Origin: a virus
Virus record (IMG/VR): IMGVR_UViG_3300022853_000060
Span: 1 to 30,339 of that record
Direction: 5' to 3' (one strand)
DNA: 30,339 nt
The translations under genes were made by a program, and so were the position numbers. This document shows positions 8,820 through 29,778 of the stretch, piece after piece. Numbering within the stretch: the stretch's first letter is position 1; each line of letters opens with the position of its first letter. The notes beneath the pieces were generated by a model, which saw only the letters and a list, made by a program, of their open reading frames with translations, did not search any database and had not been told where the DNA came from.

Positions 8820-8927
8820 CTATATCAATGGATGGAGTATCATTGCAGCGCGGATAGGGTAGCACCTGAAAAGCCGGAATATCCACCCGGCCTGCCGCGC
8901 ATTTAAGTGGATCCTCGGGAGACGGGA

Positions 8928-17542: not shown

Positions 17543-18439
17543 ATGAAAATCATCCCGCCAATTGAAGTTACCGACGCAAATCTAACGTCCTCGAATGTGC
17601 CGGAAACAGACGCGCCATTTTGGTTGGTCGGAACCACATATGTCATTAACGATCAGGTTATTTACGAACATAACATTTATGAGAGCCTCTCGGGCAGCAA
17701 CACTGGAAACCAACCAGATATTAGCCCGACTGAGTGGTTGTTTCTCGGTGCAACCAATCGCTACAAAGCATTCGACAAACGACTGAGCGATGTAGTTTCT
17801 CAGGCTGAATCAATCACATATACAATAAACCACAATGGGGAATTTGTTAGCGCAGTTGCATTCTTTGGCTTGAAAGGATCAACCCTGCTTGTCGAAGTTA
17901 ACGACCCTGACGATGGGTTGGTATTCTCTCAATCATACGTTCTGCTTGATGATACTGGCGTAATTGACTGGTCAACCTATTTCTTTTCGCCAATTGGTGT
18001 CCAGCGCCAAGAGGTGATTGAGGTGGCGCTACCGCCATTTCTCAACGCATCAACAACAGTGACTATAACAAATGCGGGCGGGATTGCGCAGGTCGGTCAA
18101 ATCGTTCTTGGGCGGTTGTTTGATCTTGGCGTTACAGTTTACGGCACAAGCATATCCATTGAAGATTATAGCCGGAAAGAGCGTGACGCTTTTGGCAATG
18201 CAATAATCGTTGAAAGAGCATTCGCGCAATTGGTTGATTACGACGTAAGAATTAGCACTGAGTTAGCGCGAAGAGCGCAAAACACTTTTGCCCAATATCG
18301 CACCACGCCAATCGTGTGGGTTGGTGACGAAAAAGAAGAACTTGGAACAATCGTTTACGGCTATTACCGACGTTTTGACATCACGCTTTCGTCGCCCCTG
18401 ATATCCGACGCAACAATCGAAGTAGAAGGACTAATCTAA
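17543..18439 (+). CDS. Distal tail protein with carbohydrate-binding-like module
   Basis: In this 298-residue protein, residues ~25-70 (WLVGTTYVINDQVIYEHNIY, then a W-L-F-L-G ending) resemble a chitin-binding type 3 (CBM5/12-like) module: an aromatic-rich short beta domain with a YxxGDxVxYxGxxYxS-like rhythm. The rest is beta-rich tail-tip sequence ending RRFDITLSSPLISDATIEVE. Composition is more AT-rich than the tape measure before it. The gene starts 3 bases after the tape-measure stop and overlaps the next by one base (TAATG). It probably forms part of the tail tip and contacts surface glycans; the binding role is inferred from pattern alone. Confidence 0.6.
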   Translation: MKIIPPIEVTDANLTSSNVPETDAPFWLVGTTYVINDQVIYEHNIYESLSGSNTGNQPDISPTEWLFLGATNRYKAFDKRLSDVVSQAESITYTINHNGEFVSAVAFFGLKGSTLLVEVNDPDDGLVFSQSYVLLDDTGVIDWSTYFFSPIGVQRQEVIEVALPPFLNASTTVTITNAGGIAQVGQIVLGRLFDLGVTVYGTSISIEDYSRKERDAFGNAIIVERAFAQLVDYDVRISTELARRAQNTFAQYRTTPIVWVGDEKEELGTIVYGYYRRFDITLSSPLISDATIEVEGLI

Positions 18440-19062
18440 TGGCCGCTCCCACCGTTTCTTTGCTACCACCTGCACCAAGTCGTGCAAGCCCTGTCGACTT
18501 TTCAGCCAAGGCGGATGCGCTGCTCGGATCGCTTGCGGGATGGGTTTCTCAATCTAATACACTTGGCGCATACCTAAACACCACGAGCGCAAGCATTGAA
18601 TTGCTGCGAAATCAAACGGTCGTCGCTCAAGCCGCAACGGAGGCGGCTAGAGATGCTGCTTTTGTAAACGCCAACGTGTATTCAAGCACATCTGCAGGCC
18701 TATCCAGCACAGCCATCGGGGTTCAGTTTCAGGTCGTTGCGGGTGATGAAGTTATCCGCTACCGGCATGATTCCGGCCCTGTTGCAACTGAGGTCGCCAG
18801 ATACCCTGCGGCGGTGGCATTTTTGGCGCTTAACGCGACCCTATCCCAAAGCCTGTCAATGATTGGCCAAGTTGCAGGGCAGGTGAACGGTGGCCGCGCC
18901 ACACTGGAAGGAGGGACGCTTGCCGACCCCGCTCTACGCATCGGAACGGCTGGCATCTACAGCGCGGCTGCTGACACATTATCAATTGTAATTGCCGGAT
19001 CGGAGGTCGCGCGGTTCACCGCATCCGGCCTTACCGTTTACGGCTTGGTCACGGAGGTATGA
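18439..19062 (+). CDS. Tail fibre / tip protein
   Basis: This 207-residue protein has an N-terminal proline-rich segment, then a helical coiled-coil region (ASIELLRNQTVVAQAATEAA) and a beta-rich C-terminal part (RIGTAGIYSAAADTLSIVIA, then VARFTASGLTVYG) of the kind seen in phage fibre shafts. It lies between the distal tail gene and the DGR target. It may hold or trimerise with the variable protein, by analogy with other fibre operons; no direct evidence here. Confidence 0.6.
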   Translation: MAAPTVSLLPPAPSRASPVDFSAKADALLGSLAGWVSQSNTLGAYLNTTSASIELLRNQTVVAQAATEAARDAAFVNANVYSSTSAGLSSTAIGVQFQVVAGDEVIRYRHDSGPVATEVARYPAAVAFLALNATLSQSLSMIGQVAGQVNGGRATLEGGTLADPALRIGTAGIYSAAADTLSIVIAGSEVARFTASGLTVYGLVTEV

Positions 19063-19066
19063 CCCA

Positions 19067-19390
19067 ATGAGCTATAAGCACAACCTGCAACCCATGACCG
19101 GAGAGAGCTTTGTCCGCTGCAATCAGATCGTCGTTGACAATCGGCTAAACAAAACTCCCGCCATCACTTTCTCGCAAGAAACCATCGTGGGCGGCCCGGA
19201 TGGGCCTGTTTTGCATATCCCGATGTCACCCGTGCCCATGGCCTTTGATCCCGTGGCCACAATCCCGATCATAAACCCTGAAACCGGCGAAGATACGGGC
19301 CAAACCGCAACCCAAGCCGAGGTCTATGCGCTCATCTATAGCGCCTACCTTGCAACCGTTACCGCGCCGCCGGACGGGGGGGCAGTCTAA
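19067..19390 (+). CDS. Small tail protein, 107 aa, upstream of variable protein
   Basis: The ATG at 19067 has GGAGGT 8 bases upstream, one of the best ribosome sites in the late region. The product begins MSYKHNLQPMTGESFVRCNQ and contains mixed beta sequence with PVPMAFDPVATIPIINPETG. No family was recognised. The stop overlaps the variable-protein start by one base, so the two are probably translationally coupled. A connector or chaperone for the variable adhesin is a reasonable guess. Confidence 0.65.
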   Translation: MSYKHNLQPMTGESFVRCNQIVVDNRLNKTPAITFSQETIVGGPDGPVLHIPMSPVPMAFDPVATIPIINPETGEDTGQTATQAEVYALIYSAYLATVTAPPDGGAV

Positions 19391-20424
19391 TGACCGCACT
19401 CCAGGACAACTTGCGAACGCAAGTCGAGGCAATGAGCAAGGGGCAGATGACGGTGCGCTTCACGACCAAAGGCCAGCCCAGCTATTTTCATCGGATCTCT
19501 AAATTCAACGTAGAGGACCTTGACGCAAGCCTTGGGGCTGGTGTGCATCCGGCGTTCATCGTGGGCGGCGTTGAAAAAGATGAAATACTGATCGGCACCC
19601 ACCAGGCCGCTGAGGTGAGTGGCGAAATGGTGTCACAGGCGGGTCTCATGCCCAGAGTCAGCATCAACCACGATCAGGCCGTCACGCTCGCGCGCGCCTC
19701 CGGTCTGGGGTTTTGCGTATGCACAAACGCCATGTATGCGGCAATCGCACTGAGCGCCCGCGCATCTGGCCGGTTCCCGCGTGGAAACAACAACAACGGT
19801 CGCGCCTATAATGCGCAGGGCGAATTTGGTGTGAATGCTGCGGGCAATCCAACGCCGGGAGGCAGCTTTGGCGCGCCGGTTCGGGCGGGATCAGGCCCCG
19901 TCGCCTGGAATTACCCGCCAACGCCATTCGGCATCCAGAACCTCAACGGCAACGTGTGGGAGTGGTCGCCGGGAATGCGGGTCGTTGACAGTGAAATTCA
20001 GGTGATCCCCAACAATGACGCTGTGCTTTTGGCTACCGACCTGAGCGGGTCGGGGCCGTGGCAGGCCATCCTTGCCTCTGATGGTACCCTAGTGGCACCG
20101 GGCACGGCCGGCACCGTCAAGTATGCTACGTCAGGCACCGCTGCGGATACGCTCACCTGCGGGAACGGAGCAGCCTTTTCGAGCATGACCGCAAACACGG
20201 TTTCCACGGCGGCACTCAAGCGGTTGAAGCAGCTCGGCCTTATGCAGCCAGGATCGCCGATCGAAAGCGATGGCTTTTACATTACCACAACCAGTGAGCG
20301 CCTGCCGTTCCGTGGCGGCGTTTGGAGCAGTAGCTCTCGGGCTGGGGCCTTCGCCCTGTACCTGAGCCTTTCCCGTTCGAGCGCGAACACGTACATCGGC
20401 TTTCGCCCCGCTTTCGTAATCTGA
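19390..20424 (+). CDS. DGR variable protein (FGE/C-type-lectin-fold adhesin)
   Basis: This 344-residue protein is probably the receptor-binding tip. The C-terminal half has the formylglycine-generating-enzyme-like C-type lectin fold: IQNLNGNVWEW near 180-190 and ending FRGGVWSSSSRAGAFAL through YIGFRPAFVI, the RGG-W ... GFRPA signature. The last ~40 codons are the variable repeat (20295-20413). Relative to the template, eight codons are changed, giving F307, V311, S314, Y324, S326, L327, S331 and Y335; seven come from template Asn codons (AAY) and one from Ile. N333 remains as in the template. The fold tolerates such surface changes in known DGR proteins. It overlaps the preceding gene by one base and is followed by a hairpin needed for retrohoming in related systems. 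Confidence 0.92.
   Translation: MTALQDNLRTQVEAMSKGQMTVRFTTKGQPSYFHRISKFNVEDLDASLGAGVHPAFIVGGVEKDEILIGTHQAAEVSGEMVSQAGLMPRVSINHDQAVTLARASGLGFCVCTNAMYAAIALSARASGRFPRGNNNNGRAYNAQGEFGVNAAGNPTPGGSFGAPVRAGSGPVAWNYPPTPFGIQNLNGNVWEWSPGMRVVDSEIQVIPNNDAVLLATDLSGSGPWQAILASDGTLVAPGTAGTVKYATSGTAADTLTCGNGAAFSSMTANTVSTAALKRLKQLGLMQPGSPIESDGFYITTTSERLPFRGGVWSSSSRAGAFALYLSLSRSSANTYIGFRPAFVI
20295..20413 (+). repeat. DGR variable repeat (VR)
   Basis: This 119-bp segment at the 3' end of the variable-protein gene aligns without gaps to 20841-20959. The ten mismatches are at 20308, 20320, 20321, 20330, 20359, 20366, 20368, 20369, 20381 and 20392, each opposite a template adenine. The last 21 bases (20393-20413), ending in CGCCCCGCTT, are identical and would be the initiation-of-mutagenic-homing end. 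The next base, T20414 against C20960, is the first non-adenine difference. Confidence 0.97.
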
Positions 20425-20447
20425 AATCTGCTGAGCTGAAATCTGAA

Positions 20448-20467
20448 GGCCGCGCGATAGCGCGGTC
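20448..20467 (+). promoter_or_regulatory. GC-rich hairpin with GATA loop downstream of VR
   Basis: GGCCGCGC (20448-20455) pairs with GCGCGGTC (20460-20467) around a GATA tetraloop; 8 bp with one G-T pair. Known DGR targets carry a GC-rich 7-10 bp hairpin/cruciform with a 4-base GRNA loop just past the VR that raises retrohoming efficiency, and GATA fits GRNA. It lies about 34 bases beyond the VR. No T-run follows, so a terminator role is unlikely. Confidence 0.7.
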
Positions 20468-20489
20468 CATTACCGCAAGGAGCGCCGGC

Positions 20490-20843
20490 TTGGACGATCT
20501 GAAAATCAGACAGAAATGCGAGGAGATGATTGCATATGGATATGTTGCACTGCGTCAATTTCCAAAATTTGAACGGCACGTCCTGGGTGCCGAGATAAGG
20601 GACGCTATGTGGGGCGTGCTGCGTCTGATTATTGTCACCAACAAGCGCTACCACAAAAAGACCACGATGCAGGATCTGGATGCAGAGCTTGACTTGTTGC
20701 GCTCACAAATCCGAACAGCCTTTGGCTTGCGGTATATCGACCTGAAAAAATACGAAACATGGTCTCGCCTCATGGATGAGGTGGGCCGCATGATCGGCGG
20801 CTGGTTTAAGTCGCTGAAAGGAGGGGTTGCGGGCCATGCATGA
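20490..20843 (+). CDS. avd: DGR accessory variability determinant (Avd)
   Basis: This 117-residue all-helical, basic protein is of the Avd/four-helix-bundle family. It begins MDDLKIRQKCEEMIAYGYVA and ends with the family-typical WSRLMDEVGRMIGGWFKSLK. Avd forms a pentamer that binds the reverse transcriptase and the template RNA and is needed for mutagenic cDNA synthesis. The start is TTG: AAGGAG (20477-20482) lies 7 bases upstream, and no ATG exists near. Its TGA stop (20841-20843) is the first three bases of the template repeat, so TR begins exactly where avd ends. Confidence 0.92.
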   Translation: MDDLKIRQKCEEMIAYGYVALRQFPKFERHVLGAEIRDAMWGVLRLIIVTNKRYHKKTTMQDLDAELDLLRSQIRTAFGLRYIDLKKYETWSRLMDEVGRMIGGWFKSLKGGVAGHA

Positions 20844-20959
20844 GCGCCTGCCGATCCGTGGCGGCAATTGGAGCAATAGCTCTCGGGCTGGGGCCTTCGC
20901 CCTGAACCTGAACAATTCCCGTTCGAACGCGAACACGAACATCGGCTTTCGCCCCGCTT
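20841..20959 (+). repeat. DGR template repeat (TR)
   Basis: This is the 119-bp master copy. It holds 22 adenines, and ten of them differ in the VR. Read in the VR frame, it contains eight AAY (Asn) codons: 20866, 20875, 20905, 20911, 20914, 20926, 20932 and 20938. AAY randomised at both adenines can encode 15 amino acids and never a stop, the classic DGR design. It lies between avd and the reverse transcriptase on the same strand as the target. Confidence 0.97.
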
Positions 20960-21055
20960 CCGGGGTTCGTCAGAAGGCAAAAGCTCAAGGGCTTTCGCAC
21001 AGAACACCCCCGAAAGGGCCTGTAATCCTCGGCCAAGTGCCGAAAAAAATAAACA

Positions 21056-21102
21056 GGCCGGAGTGTCGCAGTACCTGCTTGCGGAGACCCCTCATTCCGG
21101 CC
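21056..21102 (+). promoter_or_regulatory. Long stem-loop in TR-RT spacer, just before RT start
   Basis: GGCCGGAGTG pairs with CATTCCGGCC (9 of 10 Watson-Crick, one G-U), and an inner CGCA (21067-21070) pairs with TGCG (21080-21083). It ends 22 bases before the reverse-transcriptase ATG. It may be a binding element for the RT-Avd complex in the template RNA, or may limit RT translation. Confidence 0.55.
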
Positions 21103-21124
21103 GTCCCTATTTGCGAGAGTGTCA

Positions 21125-22234
21125 ATGGCCAAAACATTTAATAACCTATGGGAAGCCGTGACCTCGTGGCCCTCGCTCCTCGCGGCTTGGGAGAAAACCG
21201 CAAAAGGCCGGCACCGCCAGAGGGACGTCATTACCTTTCGCGCCAACCTCGAGCCAAACCTGATCGAGCTTCAAAACAGCCTGATTCACAAAACCTATCA
21301 GACAGGCCCATATCATCTCTTTTTCGTGTTTGAGCCCAAGCGCCGCGAGATATCTTCGCTACCCCTCAAGGATCGCATCGTACAGCATGCCCTGGTTGCC
21401 ACCCTAGAGCCTATTTTCGACGCCAGATTTATAGATCAGTCATATGCGTGCCGCCCGGGCAAGGGTGCTCACAGGGGCGCGGACGCTGTGCAGGCATACC
21501 TGCGCGAGGTCAATCGCAAACACGGGTCCGTTTGCGCGCTGAAAGCAGACATTTCCAAATATTTCCCCTCAATATCGCACGACGTATTAAAGCGTCAGAT
21601 ACGCAGGCGGATCGCCTGTTCGGAAACACTCACCTTGATCGACGGCATTATCGACAGCACCGCCGATCCATCCGACACATTGCCGCGCGGAATACCGATC
21701 GGAAACCTGACTTCGCAGCTTTTCGCGAATATCTATCTGAACGATCTGGATTACTTTGTGAAGCACACGCTGCGCGAGGGCCGATATTTGCGCTACATGG
21801 ATGACTTCGCAATCGTGCACCCTGACAAGTCTCACTTGCACCTGGTGCGCCGCGATATTGAAGATTTCCTATGGGCACACCTCGGCCTGCGCACGAATGC
21901 CAAAACACAGGTATTTCCAGTCGGAGACGGGGGCCGCGCGCTGGATTTTCTGGGGTACCGCATCTGGCCAACGCACCGCGCGCTGCGCAAGGACAGCATC
22001 AACCGAATGAAGCGCAAGATGAAACGGATGGCATCACTTTACCACCAAGGCCGGATCACTTGGGATGAGATCGACCCCGTGATTATGTCTTGGGTCGCGC
22101 ACGCCAGGCACGCTGACACATACAACTTGAGATCGAAGATATTGGGTGGCGTGGCGTTCACACCCCCGCCCCTGCTAAGTGATCGTCATATGATTGCGCA
22201 AAGAAACGCAAGAAAGAAGTTGCTCGACACATGA
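21125..22234 (+). CDS. DGR reverse transcriptase
   Basis: This 369-residue protein carries the core motifs of group-II-intron-related bacterial reverse transcriptases: ALKADISKYFPSISH (catalytic Asp, domain 3), LPRGIPIGNLTSQLFANIYL (domain 4) and RYMDDFAIV (domain 5, catalytic YMDD). The IGxxxSQ form in domain 4, instead of QGxxxSP, is diagnostic of DGR enzymes. It copies TR RNA with errors at adenines and feeds the cDNA into the VR. ATG 21125 is chosen, with GAGAG 5 bases upstream; a GTG at 21119 is in frame. The stop overlaps the next start (ATGA), tying the enzyme to the lysis-gene transcript. All catalytic residues are intact. Confidence 0.96.
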   Translation: MAKTFNNLWEAVTSWPSLLAAWEKTAKGRHRQRDVITFRANLEPNLIELQNSLIHKTYQTGPYHLFFVFEPKRREISSLPLKDRIVQHALVATLEPIFDARFIDQSYACRPGKGAHRGADAVQAYLREVNRKHGSVCALKADISKYFPSISHDVLKRQIRRRIACSETLTLIDGIIDSTADPSDTLPRGIPIGNLTSQLFANIYLNDLDYFVKHTLREGRYLRYMDDFAIVHPDKSHLHLVRRDIEDFLWAHLGLRTNAKTQVFPVGDGGRALDFLGYRIWPTHRALRKDSINRMKRKMKRMASLYHQGRITWDEIDPVIMSWVAHARHADTYNLRSKILGGVAFTPPPLLSDRHMIAQRNARKKLLDT

Positions 22235-22581
22235 GCCGCTACACCCGCGCCCGCGACTGGTACGAGCCGGCCGGGGGCATCCGCTACCGCATCACAGAGC
22301 CTCTGACCTGGTATGTGGGCTGCGTCGAGACAGGCGCGGCCTATACGGTGCCGGCGGGGTTTGTGTTCGACGTCTCGATCCCCTGGATCTGGCGCTGGCT
22401 ACTCGATCCGCACGATCGGCGGTTTTTAAAAGCGGCCGCGCTGCACGATCACTTTCTGTCCATCGGATGGGATCGGTTCACGGCAGGCGCACAGTTTCAC
22501 CAAGCGCTAATGGCCGACGGTGTGGGTAGGTTTCGAAGGGCAGTAATGGCGCTGGCTGTTCTGTTTTTCAAATACCGATAG
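22231..22581 (+). CDS. DUF1353-family phage protein
   Basis: In this 116-residue protein, VPAGFVFDVSIPWIW (about 46-60), then DRRFLKAAALHDHFLS (about 69-84), carries the conserved Asp/Ser/Pro and His-Asp pattern of DUF1353, found in many phages near tail or lysis genes. The conserved acidic and His residues suggest metal binding, but no activity is established. It overlaps the reverse-transcriptase stop by four bases (ATGA). Its hydrophobic aromatic surface might support a membrane or wall role at lysis. Confidence 0.75.
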   Translation: MSRYTRARDWYEPAGGIRYRITEPLTWYVGCVETGAAYTVPAGFVFDVSIPWIWRWLLDPHDRRFLKAAALHDHFLSIGWDRFTAGAQFHQALMADGVGRFRRAVMALAVLFFKYR

Positions 22582-22598
22582 GATAAGAGGGATAAGAA

Positions 22599-22904
22599 AT
22601 GCAACTCACCGAGATTGAAATTGCAACGGCGGTTGTTTTTCTCGCGCTGCAAATTGCGGACGTGTGGACAACGATTGTCGGCATGAAAACTGGCGCGACA
22701 GAGGCCAATGGAATCGTCGCGTGGCTAATGCGAAAACTTGGAAAAGGCTGGGTGCCGGTTAAGCTGGTTGTGTCTATTGGCGGTGCCTATCTCGCAGGGG
22801 CCGGCGGGGCTATTTGGGCGGTCTGGATTCTATGCGCTTTATTTGCCTATGTCGTTTTCCATAATTACCGCATCATTAAAGACCGCAAAGCCCGTGGGTT
22901 TTAA
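22599..22904 (+). CDS. Small multi-pass membrane protein (holin candidate)
   Basis: This 101-residue protein has about three hydrophobic segments: IEIATAVVFLALQIADVW near 5-22, VPVKLVVSIGGAYLAGAGGA near 52-71, and AIWAVWILCALFAYVVF near 71-87. A basic tail, IIKDRKARGF, follows. The DVWTT...GATEANGI pattern resembles DUF5658-type membrane proteins. It directly precedes the endolysin, a common holin position. GAGGGATAAGAA precedes the ATG. At least three other membrane genes follow, so the true holin cannot be settled from sequence. Confidence 0.6.
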   Translation: MQLTEIEIATAVVFLALQIADVWTTIVGMKTGATEANGIVAWLMRKLGKGWVPVKLVVSIGGAYLAGAGGAIWAVWILCALFAYVVFHNYRIIKDRKARGF

Positions 22905-22913
22905 GGAGTAGAT

Positions 22914-23543
22914 ATGAATAATTCTGAGCGGGCAATCCCCAAAATACTGAAGCACGAAGGCGGGTATGTAAACAATCCGGCTGACCCCGGCGGGGCAACG
23001 AACAAGGGAATTACGATTGCCACGTTTCGCCGCTACATCAAACCCGGCGGCACGATTGCAGACTTAAAGGCGCTGACCGAGTCTCAGGCCGTGGTTGTCT
23101 ATAAGCGTCAGTATTGGGACGCTGTGAGTGCGGATCTTCTGCCGTCAGGTGTTGACTACGCCGTTGCTGATTTTGCCGTGAATAGCGGGCCGTCACGGGC
23201 TGGCAAGTATCTGCAAAAGGTTGTCGGGACGGCACAAGATGGCGTTGTTGGTCCTGCTACCATTGCAGCAGCACGGGGGCTTTCCGCGCCTGACGTTATT
23301 AACGATATTTGCGATGAGCGGCTTGCATTCATGCGCCGTATCAGGGGCGGCAGGCTGTGGAAAACATTTGGCCGTGGCTGGCAGCGCCGTGTTGATGATG
23401 TGCGGGCTGTGTCATTGGCGTGGGCCACGCAGAAAGCACCAAAGCCCATTATCGACACAACCCCCGCGAAACCCCCGCAACGCAGCCTATGGGTCGTTCT
23501 GGCGTCCCTGCTGGCGTCTATCTTTGGAAAGGGCAAACCATGA
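22914..23543 (+). CDS. GH108 N-acetylmuramidase endolysin with C-terminal anchor
   Basis: This 209-residue protein has an N-terminal domain with KHEGGYVNNPADPGGATNKG, the GH108 signature: the Glu in HEGGY is catalytic. QYWDAV and the C-terminal peptidoglycan-binding-like half (VGTAQDGVVGPATIAAARG) follow. It cleaves the glycan strands of peptidoglycan. A hydrophobic tail, SLWVVLASLLASIFG (192-206), may tether it to the inner membrane. AAGGAG lies 6 bases before the ATG. The stop overlaps the next ATG (ATGA). Confidence 0.92.
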   Translation: MNNSERAIPKILKHEGGYVNNPADPGGATNKGITIATFRRYIKPGGTIADLKALTESQAVVVYKRQYWDAVSADLLPSGVDYAVADFAVNSGPSRAGKYLQKVVGTAQDGVVGPATIAAARGLSAPDVINDICDERLAFMRRIRGGRLWKTFGRGWQRRVDDVRAVSLAWATQKAPKPIIDTTPAKPPQRSLWVVLASLLASIFGKGKP

Positions 23544-27301: not shown

Positions 27302-27490
27302 TCAATCTCGCCAAGCAGGGCGGCGACCCATGGTAATGACATGATGTACATCCGATGGCCCAGACTTGCGGCAGATGGCACAGGGCAGTTCCTTGACGCG
27401 GCGCATCCATTCCTTGCCCTCGCGTATCTCGGCAGAGGATAGCTTAGGCGCTTTCTGGCCAAGTGGCGGGCGGGGGCTGATCTGGTTCAC
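27302..27490 (-). CDS. Short HNH-nuclease-like protein, probably truncated
   Basis: This 62-residue protein contains CAICRKSGPSDVHHVITM, the first half of a beta-beta-alpha HNH zinc-nuclease motif (Cys pair then the HH). The second half, with its usual downstream His/Asn and second Cys or His pair, is absent: the frame stops soon after GRRPAWRD. Neither other frame downstream restores it. Start ATG 27490 overlaps the upstream stop. It may be a remnant nuclease, or a small protein that no longer cuts. Confidence 0.55.
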   Translation of the reverse strand: MNQISPRPPLGQKAPKLSSAEIREGKEWMRRVKELPCAICRKSGPSDVHHVITMGRRPAWRD

Positions 27491-27918
27491 GCTGCCCGCT
27501 CCTGTTCCGCTGGATCGGTTAACCGAATGCCTTGCCCAGCATATTTGCGATGCACCGCGTCACACATTTTTGACAGTTGCGGCTTTGTCATTACCGAAGT
27601 GACGGCGATGTAATCCATGGCGGCTATCTTTTCCTCTACTGTCAGGCGCGAAAGGTTGCCCACGAAAGCCACGAAGGCCGGATCGTCTGCCATTAGGATC
27701 GGGGAACCTTGGTAATACTTGCATTCGCGTTTCACCTGGTCGGCGGTTTCAAACGTCTGCGCTGCGATTTCGCAAAACCACAGATGCAGCAGGGCGTTTT
27801 GCGATAGGCTGCGCTTGGCCCCAGGGGTGACTGTCACCGTGAAAGGCATCTTTAAGCCTCTCAGGTATTCAGCCAGCGACCGGGCCTCTGCTTCATCCAT
27901 GATTGAGCGGGTCGGCAT
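27487..27918 (-). CDS. NinB-like recombination protein
   Basis: In this 143-residue protein, TPGAKRSLSQNALLHLWF (about 32-49) carries the RS-QN-LHLW core seen in NinB/Orf-type proteins, which bind ssDNA and help recombination. VEEKIAAMDYIAVTSVM and a basic C-terminal helix follow. It sits directly downstream of the SSB-like gene in the early operon, which suits that role. The start overlaps the SSB-like stop by one base; no strong ribosome site is present, so coupled translation is likely. NinB identity is by pattern, not alignment. Confidence 0.6.
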   Translation of the reverse strand: MPTRSIMDEAEARSLAEYLRGLKMPFTVTVTPGAKRSLSQNALLHLWFCEIAAQTFETADQVKRECKYYQGSPILMADDPAFVAFVGNLSRLTVEEKIAAMDYIAVTSVMTKPQLSKMCDAVHRKYAGQGIRLTDPAEQERAA

Positions 27919-28280
27919 TAGATAAGTGTCACAGGGGCAAATGGAATTTCATCCCCTAGATCACGGCCTGAGTTGGCATTGCCTCCTCCACCTGACTGCC
28001 CACCTTGAGGCGATTGATCGTAACCGTCACCAGATCCACCGCGCTGATTGCCGTCCTCAAAGATTGACACCATCACGCGGTCGCCAGATCGGCCACCGTT
28101 TGCATCGGCCAGAATCTTCTGTTGCAAAAGAATTCCAGCCAGATTCACCGTAGGGTCAAGCAAAGCGTATTCGCCTTTGTAGTTTGACATAATGACGCCA
28201 ATCTCGACGTATTTGGCTTTCGTCTCTCCGTCCTTTTGGTACTCGCCAGTTTTTGCTTTCAATTTTTTAACCATCTTCAT
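27918..28280 (-). CDS. ssb: Single-stranded DNA-binding protein-like
   Basis: This 120-residue protein has an N-terminal beta-rich OB-fold-like half (KYVEIGVIMSNYKGEYALLD, GDRVMVSIFEDG). A glycine/glutamine-rich linker leads to DLGDEIPFAPVTLI. The DDEIPF-like acidic end is characteristic of SSB proteins, although here extra residues follow it. It lies between a coiled-coil gene and the NinB-like gene, in a recombination block. AAGGA lies just upstream of ATG 28280 (an ATG two codons later is also possible). Confidence 0.7.
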   Translation of the reverse strand: MKMVKKLKAKTGEYQKDGETKAKYVEIGVIMSNYKGEYALLDPTVNLAGILLQQKILADANGGRSGDRVMVSIFEDGNQRGGSGDGYDQSPQGGQSGGGGNANSGRDLGDEIPFAPVTLI

Positions 28281-28324
28281 TTTTCCTTGATATTTGTTGT
28301 TGATTTTCGTCCGTGGTTGGCGTC

Positions 28325-29017
28325 CTAGAATGCCTCCTTTTCGGTCCAGACGCGGACGCCCTCGATGGCGCGGGACTTGTGATTGCGGCGAACGTATTCA
28401 TCCACGAAGGCGGCAATCGCGTCGGTGTCGCTTGTATAGATGTCCATCAGCGCCGCTTTATGGCTGTCTATCTTGTAGCGCGTAACGGTGCGCATCCCTT
28501 TGAGCGCATCCTTGGCAACGGCCTTAGCTGCGTTCTCTGCGTCGATCACGGATTGCTTGGCGGCGGCAACTTCCCGTTGCGCGTCGATATCAGATGCATT
28601 CGCAGCGGCGGCTTTGGCCTCGGCTTCACGGCGTAGGCGGTTGGTTTCTTCCCACGCCTTGCGCTCGGCTTCTGCCTTCTCAGCGGCCAGCTTTTGCTTG
28701 AACACGTTGACGGTTGAAACGAGGCACCCTTCGATACGCTTGGTGTCCTCAATGGTTGGATTCCAGCGGTCCTGTTCTGCCTTGTAGATGGCATGTAGTG
28801 GCTTTGTGGCGTCCTTCTGGCCTGCCTCAAGATCAAGGCGGCACTGGCGCATTGCTTTGCGCAGCGCATCCACCTCGTTCATCTGTGCCTCGTTCTCGAC
28901 GGGCTTACCGTCCGTCCAGTTCTCGGCCTCCTCGCGGTCGGTGTTATACGATCCGGTGATTGCGTCGATGGGATCAGGCGGCGAATTGTGGCCCATGCCG
29001 GGTGTCATATTGTTCAT
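28325..29017 (-). CDS. Coiled-coil recombination-associated protein, 230 aa
   Basis: Residues ~85-170 form a long coiled coil (QKLAAEKAEAERKAWEETNR and Ala-rich repeats), followed by a compact C-terminal domain (MRTVTRYKIDSHKAALMDIY ... YVRRNHKSRAIEGVRVW). Similar proteins lie next to annealing proteins in many phages and resemble DUF1351-type genes. AGGAGC is 7 bases before ATG 29017, which overlaps the annealing-protein stop. A partner role in single-strand annealing or end-protection is inferred. Confidence 0.65.
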   Translation of the reverse strand: MNNMTPGMGHNSPPDPIDAITGSYNTDREEAENWTDGKPVENEAQMNEVDALRKAMRQCRLDLEAGQKDATKPLHAIYKAEQDRWNPTIEDTKRIEGCLVSTVNVFKQKLAAEKAEAERKAWEETNRLRREAEAKAAAANASDIDAQREVAAAKQSVIDAENAAKAVAKDALKGMRTVTRYKIDSHKAALMDIYTSDTDAIAAFVDEYVRRNHKSRAIEGVRVWTEKEAF

Positions 29018-29778
29018 GCGTGTTGCTCCTGTTTGCTGCCGAAGTCTGGTATTTCATCGCCGCCAAGGTCGTTCTTGGCGTCCAGTTCGGCTTTCCTAGT
29101 GTTCTTGACTTGCTCAAGGGCTGAGTATGTGCCGCCACTGGATGCTCGGATTTCCGAAATGGTGCTGCTTTCGCTTGTCCAGCTTTCGCGCAGATCGTCG
29201 ATGCTTTCGGCACCCTTTAGTTTTCCGGTGATACGTTTGGCGGCTGCTTCATAATCAAATGCGGGCTTTGCCTCGTCCTCTACGTCTTGCGCCTCAATCG
29301 CGTGAAGGTCGCCCTTGTGCCAAAGGTCCAACGCAGCACCAAAGCGCATCGCAGCGTTGCGCAGCGCATCACCGATCCGCTCTTTCACCGCATTGCCGCC
29401 TTGCTTGCCGTCTGCATCGCCATAGCCAAGGCGCGTCACACCGCAAACTGTCAGCTTAATCCACATACCGCCTGTCTGGTCCAAGGCTGGTTGCCCACGT
29501 TCGTCTACGGCGACAGGTTCCCAATTCCATTCGAAGTCACAGTCAAGCAAGCGATCCGTCAACGCGGCGTGGCCGACATAATCCAGATGCACCACGTCCT
29601 TGTGATGCCATGCGCCGCATAGGTTGCAGCGAATGCCCAGCTTGAAGTTTGCCTTCACATCGTCGGTTTGCTTGCGTGTTGGCTTAGGCAGCTTCGATAT
29701 TGCGTTGGCCGGAAACGGCACTCTCAGAAGCGCAAGGCCAGATACCGGAGCGGGTTTTGTTTCGGTAACGGCGTTCAT
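29014..29778 (-). CDS. Rad52-like single-strand annealing protein
   Basis: In this 254-residue protein, HAALTDRLLDCDFEWNWEPV (about 72-91), the GMWIKLTVCGVTRLGYGDAD strand (about 103-122), and KERIGDALRNAAMRFGAALD (about 131-150) form the conserved core of Rad52/Rad22-type phage recombinases. A zinc-like CNLCGAWHH segment lies at about 51-59. The C-terminal ~90 residues are flexible. It would anneal ssDNA during replication and repair, with the SSB-like protein as partner. The stop and next start overlap (ATGA). Confidence 0.75.
   Translation of the reverse strand: MNAVTETKPAPVSGLALLRVPFPANAISKLPKPTRKQTDDVKANFKLGIRCNLCGAWHHKDVVHLDYVGHAALTDRLLDCDFEWNWEPVAVDERGQPALDQTGGMWIKLTVCGVTRLGYGDADGKQGGNAVKERIGDALRNAAMRFGAALDLWHKGDLHAIEAQDVEDEAKPAFDYEAAAKRITGKLKGAESIDDLRESWTSESSTISEIRASSGGTYSALEQVKNTRKAELDAKNDLGGDEIPDFGSKQEQHA

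Follow-up and report, generated by a model that had tools for sequence, protein, structure and literature searches.

A complete diversity-generating retroelement with adenine-specific natural variation in a phage contig

Positions 19390-22234 of the window, by which we mean the whole 30,339-base record of a viral-contig collection that was analyzed (and that may be a fragment), hold a full BPP-1-type diversity-generating retroelement (DGR). A target protein gene with the VR at its 3′ end is followed by Avd, TR and a reverse transcriptase (RT), in this order and all on the + strand. These are the four parts from which the original prediction, made from the letters alone, had read a complete DGR, and each was found where that reading placed it. 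The element is very probably a functional phage DGR that varies a protein of the tail module through mutagenic retrohoming. Its parts, the fold of its target, the clade of its RT, adenine-specific VR variation with an invariant TR, and the conservation of a spacer RNA and of a hairpin are established here.

The VR/TR pair is a direct repeat of 122 nt (20295-20416 and 20841-20962, offset 546) with 91% identity. Ten of its 11 mismatches (11/122) fall at adenines of the second copy, which has 22 adenines per 122 bases (hypergeometric p = 5e-8). The second copy was therefore assigned as TR (20841..20959, + strand; the match extends to 20962) and the first as VR (20295..20413, + strand), which codes for residues 303-342 of the 344-aa target. 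The eleventh mismatch is a C/T difference at 20414. No second VR or TR was found in the whole 30,339-base record. Read in the frame of the target, TR contains eight AAC/AAT codons, each of a kind that adenine change can turn into codons for 15 amino acids but never into a stop. In total, 21 TR adenines lie in 13 codons, giving a computed upper bound of ~3e12 protein variants. Note that the stop codon of Avd (TGA, 20841-20843) forms the first three bases of TR, so that avd and TR overlap. A Twister-sister match in TR (16.6 bits versus a cut-off of 34) was taken as chance.

Natural VR alleles were compared between the window and four public viral contigs from other metagenomes (L003, L004, L005 and L118). 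All are assembled consensus sequences, and therefore no rate can be derived from them. TR is identical in all five, which carry five different VR alleles. Over these alleles, polymorphism is seen at 18 of 22 adenine sites versus 2 of 100 other sites (Fisher p = 9e-16), the two being 20309 and 20356. The contig closest to the window, L003, differs from it at 15/122 positions in VR and at 6/12,985 elsewhere, and the corresponding values for L004 are 13/122 and 12/12,985. L005 and L118 are more distant, differing by about 1% where they align outside VR, and TR is still unchanged in both. Among the DGR relatives compared, an identical TR was found only in these four contigs, which belong to the window's own population. 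The original prediction had proposed counting VR diversity against TR as a check; run on public contigs, this count places the variation almost wholly at template adenines, with TR invariant. Variation that targets template adenines while the template stays fixed is what marks mutagenic homing, and we therefore conclude that the element has been active in nature. The natural evidence of activity is unusually clean, and it raises this DGR from a prediction to an element whose activity is directly attested at the population level.

The target protein (19390..20424, + strand, 344 aa) has an FGE-type C-type-lectin fold resembling that of TaqVP, a solved DGR variable protein from a Thermus prophage (PMC6328139). 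It matched TaqVP (PDB 5VF4) with E 4.6e-74. An AlphaFold2 model built from 42 relatives (mean pLDDT 95) was used for a Foldseek search, which returned TaqVP at the top (TM 0.90, ~40% identity in the structural alignment), followed by a Treponema denticola variable protein (4.3e-4); BPP-1 Mtd and FGE matched more weakly. Among phage protein families, the target matched phrog_2889, a family of unknown function, and weakly phrog_5302, a tail-protein family. VR lies within this protein-coding gene, at its 3′ end, on a C-type-lectin scaffold with the TaqVP fold. The FGE/C-type-lectin fold originally predicted is thus borne out, but the contrast with BPP-1 that had been drawn from it falls away, because Mtd of BPP-1 has the same FGE subtype of the C-type-lectin fold (PMC6328139). 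Judging from gene position and fold, with mtd as the precedent, the target is presumably a receptor-binding protein, and it would be placed on the phage tail.

Avd (20490..20843, + strand, 117 aa, TTG start) was recognized by NF033474 (NCBIfam; 127 bits, cut-off 80), PF22296 and phrog_3206, and is homologous to Avd of the solved BPP-1 RT-Avd complex. The RT (21125..22234, + strand, 369 aa; GTG at 21119 is an alternative start) matched phrog_1423, carries the motifs GIPIGNLTSQ and YMDD, which fit the DGR patterns [ILV]GxxxSQ and YxDD, and aligns full-length to the BPP-1 bRT of the same complex (8ub7, E 3.8e-68). A tree was built from 25 RTs, including those of BPP-1, VHML and FP_Lagaffe, 16 from the search for relatives, and five group II RTs. 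The window RT clusters with those of BPP-1, VHML and FP_Lagaffe and with the 16 RTs from the relative search, while the five group II RTs stand apart, with support of 100/100. This placement, inside the DGR clade rather than outside it, upholds the earlier reading of a DGR-type RT.

A structured spacer RNA lies 3′ of TR (20957..21101, + strand) and matches Rfam RT-14 (RF02921) with 48.5 bits, narrowly over the cut-off of 48.1; the scores in L006, L007 and L012 are 49.1, 52.4 and 50.6, respectively. Its slot is exactly between TR and RT, which in BPP-1 is the slot of Rfam Phage_DGR. The other RT-14 matches (L006, L007, L010, L012, L013 and L015) all lie directly 5′ of an RT. A spacer alignment of 16 relatives folds with a layout as in the RT-14 consensus and has compensatory changes in 17 of 32 pairs; 0 of 500 shuffles scored as high, a figure that is not a probability, as the sequences are related. 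When R1, a covariance model built here, was run on 81 further DGR loci, it located the RNA just 5′ of the RT in most of them, phage VHML among these. It gave no match to BPP-1, and the two spacer RNAs are therefore tied by place alone, not by homology.

RT-14 is a candidate structured RNA named solely for its nearness to reverse transcriptases, and the RT-associated motifs reportedly stem from Weinberg 2017, on new candidate structured RNAs. Because RT-14 and R1 matches fall directly 5′ of DGR RTs, RT-14 is very probably the spacer RNA of DGRs in this RT lineage, and there is good reason to regard it as the spacer domain of DGR template RNAs, a counterpart of Phage_DGR, in one RNA class of most phage DGRs of the lineage. 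The spacer RNA of the window DGR would then have this role. A text search of the literature for RT-14, whose original description lay outside the search, gave no match. The position of RT-14 in the spacer slot of the DGR template RNA is a modest new point that may have been stated earlier. The tie would provide a sequence-structure signature for finding DGRs and would hint at how this lineage sets up cDNA synthesis.

Two tandem DGRs are present in L025, L088 and L089, which come from genomes of Pigmentiphaga and Pseudothauera and from a viral contig. Their order is Avd1-TR1-RT1-Avd2-TR2-RT2 (5355-8787 in L088 coordinates), and each TR is followed by its own spacer RNA. No VR for TR2 was seen in the locus; it lies elsewhere in the genome (L217 and L218), at the end of another gene, with 10/14 and 13/16 core mismatches, respectively, at TR2 adenines.

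The last part of VR is an IMH-like 3′ end (TCGGCTTTCGCCCCGCTT, 20396..20413, + strand). This GC-rich segment is invariant, being the same in TR and in all aligned alleles, and the first fixed VR/TR difference lies just 3′ of it. By analogy with BPP-1 (PMC3240598), it may act as an IMH. A GC-rich hairpin/cruciform of the DGR type follows 34 nt 3′ of the VR core (20448..20467, + strand; GGCCGCGC-GATA-GCGCGGTC), with an 8-bp stem that includes one G-T wobble and with the loop GATA (GRNA). Guo et al. found that BPP-1 homing requires a hairpin/cruciform 3′ of VR, and described the hairpins of phage DGRs as lying 4-34 bp after VR and having GC-rich stems of 7-10 bp and a GRNA loop (PMC3240598). Using as criterion a GRNA-loop stem of at least six Watson-Crick pairs within 80 nt after VR, we found such a hairpin in 38 of 40 loci, including BPP-1, and in 0.55% of 2,000 random stretches. 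Its distance from VR is 27-37 nt in all hairpin-bearing loci except BPP-1 (4 nt, as published). In the window DGR, the hairpin probably has the role known from BPP-1. Note that the hairpin and the spacer RNA are parts absent from the list in the original prediction.

The element would work as follows. Transcription would yield an RNA containing TR and the structured spacer, and RT and Avd would copy TR into cDNA, misinserting opposite template adenines. Guided by the GC-rich IMH-like end and by the GRNA-loop hairpin shortly after it, the cDNA would then take the place of VR in the 3′ end of the target gene. In this way, as many as 13 residues (21 adenines) within the last ~40 residues of the FGE/C-type-lectin protein would be varied, with TR left fixed. 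The likely benefit would be a change of the host surface molecule that the phage binds. For the cDNA mechanism and RT-dependent retrohoming, BPP-1 is the model by analogy.

The window begins at its left end with a cut-off DNA methyltransferase/ParB-like gene, and its left part continues with terminase, portal, scaffold, major head protein, head-morphogenesis and connector genes. Tail terminator, major tail protein and tape-measure protein (1,804 aa) genes come next, and a tail-tip-like gene (17543-18439) and two small genes precede the DGR. To the right of the DGR are a DUF1353 gene and a GH108 endolysin gene; the DGR is thus located 3′ of the tape-measure and tail-tip genes and 5′ of the endolysin gene. 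Because no tail sheath was seen among the window genes, siphovirus-like is a fair reading of this phage from its genes, and the portal, major head, tail terminator, major tail and tape-measure genes agree with the siphovirus-like setting that had been proposed. A megablast search of named phages with 18 kb of the window gave no match, and we therefore find no near relative in that collection. An Rfam int-alpA RNA (39.1 bits, cut-off 35.8) was detected at 8847-8919, between the head-morphogenesis gene and a small ORF, and no integrase was seen near it. At the right end, NinB-like, exonuclease and single-strand annealing genes (27487-29778, - strand) point to a phage recombination module.

Among bacterial genomes, the best RT matches (64-73%) are all from Rhodobacterales (Sediminimonas, Rhodobacter, Antarcticimicrobium and Antarctobacter), and a Rhodobacterales or “Roseobacter-type” host is therefore plausible. 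When the window capsid protein was searched in four Rhodobacterales genomes, no related prophage was found. Two sister phages (L141 and L147) have a major head protein 96-97% identical to that of the window, and no DGR RT was found in either, so that the cassette is dispensable. In L141, the tail-tip gene is followed by another gene and by an endolysin unlike that of the window. Comparison of the contigs of L141 and L147 (L212 and L213, respectively) with window positions 17543-23543 showed other genes at the place of the target, DGR and endolysin. Since near relatives carry other genes at that place, the variable protein and the DGR look like an exchangeable module. The sister phages would allow targeted hypermutation to be weighed for its cost and benefit on nearly one and the same capsid backbone.

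General RT models match the window RT, as would be expected were it a group II intron, retron or DRT defense system RT that adjoins a repeat by chance. However, all of its curated group II, retron and DRT matches are far below their cut-offs; identity as a group II intron RT/maturase was rejected at 145 bits versus a cut-off of 300 for TIGR04416, and retron and DRT identities were likewise rejected. The tree, which places the RT with DGR RTs and away from group II RTs, also speaks against all three, and Avd and an adenine-biased TR/VR pair flank the gene. Chance adjacency of this kind is exceedingly improbable. A DGR that was once active and is now a relic, with VR alleles made earlier and merely sorted by recombination and selection, would be compatible with sister phages lacking the cassette, and a comparison of assembled contigs leaves the timing loose. 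Against such a relic, all genes and motifs are intact, and no decay of TR is seen in five contigs. Moreover, contigs that are only ~0.05-0.1% different elsewhere differ by 11-12% in VR, with all but one base at template adenines. We judge a relic very unlikely.

A further question concerns the product that is varied. As the target derives no tested function from any family, that of phrog_2889 being unknown, it could be a different phage protein that is displayed or secreted (one that acts on the lysogen surface, for instance) rather than a receptor-binding tail protein. However, the gene has tail genes on one side and lysis genes on the other, its place corresponds to that of mtd in BPP-1, and the weak match to phrog_5302 is to a tail-protein family. 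We consider a non-adhesin target unlikely and prefer a receptor-binding protein varied by a functional DGR.

In gene order and strand, the window element equals the BPP-1 DGR (mtd-avd-TR-brt), with which it also shares homologous RT and Avd, a GRNA-loop hairpin after VR, an FGE-type C-type-lectin target fold (found in Mtd too; PMC6328139) and a similar TR-to-RT spacing (about 165 nt in the window, 144 nt in BPP-1). In contrast to BPP-1, its target is TaqVP-like and without close similarity to Mtd (TM about 0.3), its hairpin lies 34 nt rather than 4 nt after VR, its spacer RNA is RT-14 rather than Phage_DGR, and its phage backbone is unlike that of BPP-1. TaqVP, of a Thermus aquaticus prophage DGR (PDB 5VF4), is the closest solved relative of the target and likewise has a C-terminal VR of about 40 residues, although its phage comes from another bacterial phylum and identity is about 40%. 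Rhodobacterales DGRs and related viral contigs (L006-L017 and L083-L086) have the same four-part order and kind of spacer RNA, with RTs 64-77% identical to that of the window and the hairpin 31-33 nt after VR, but their TRs are not identical to the window TR. More than 30,000 DGRs have been catalogued and are broadly active (PMC8144416), and with the viral lineages among them (Roux et al. 2021, PMC8144416) the window DGR shares being phage-encoded, having a tail-type target and being active in nature. It adds a further good example to a well-known kind of system.
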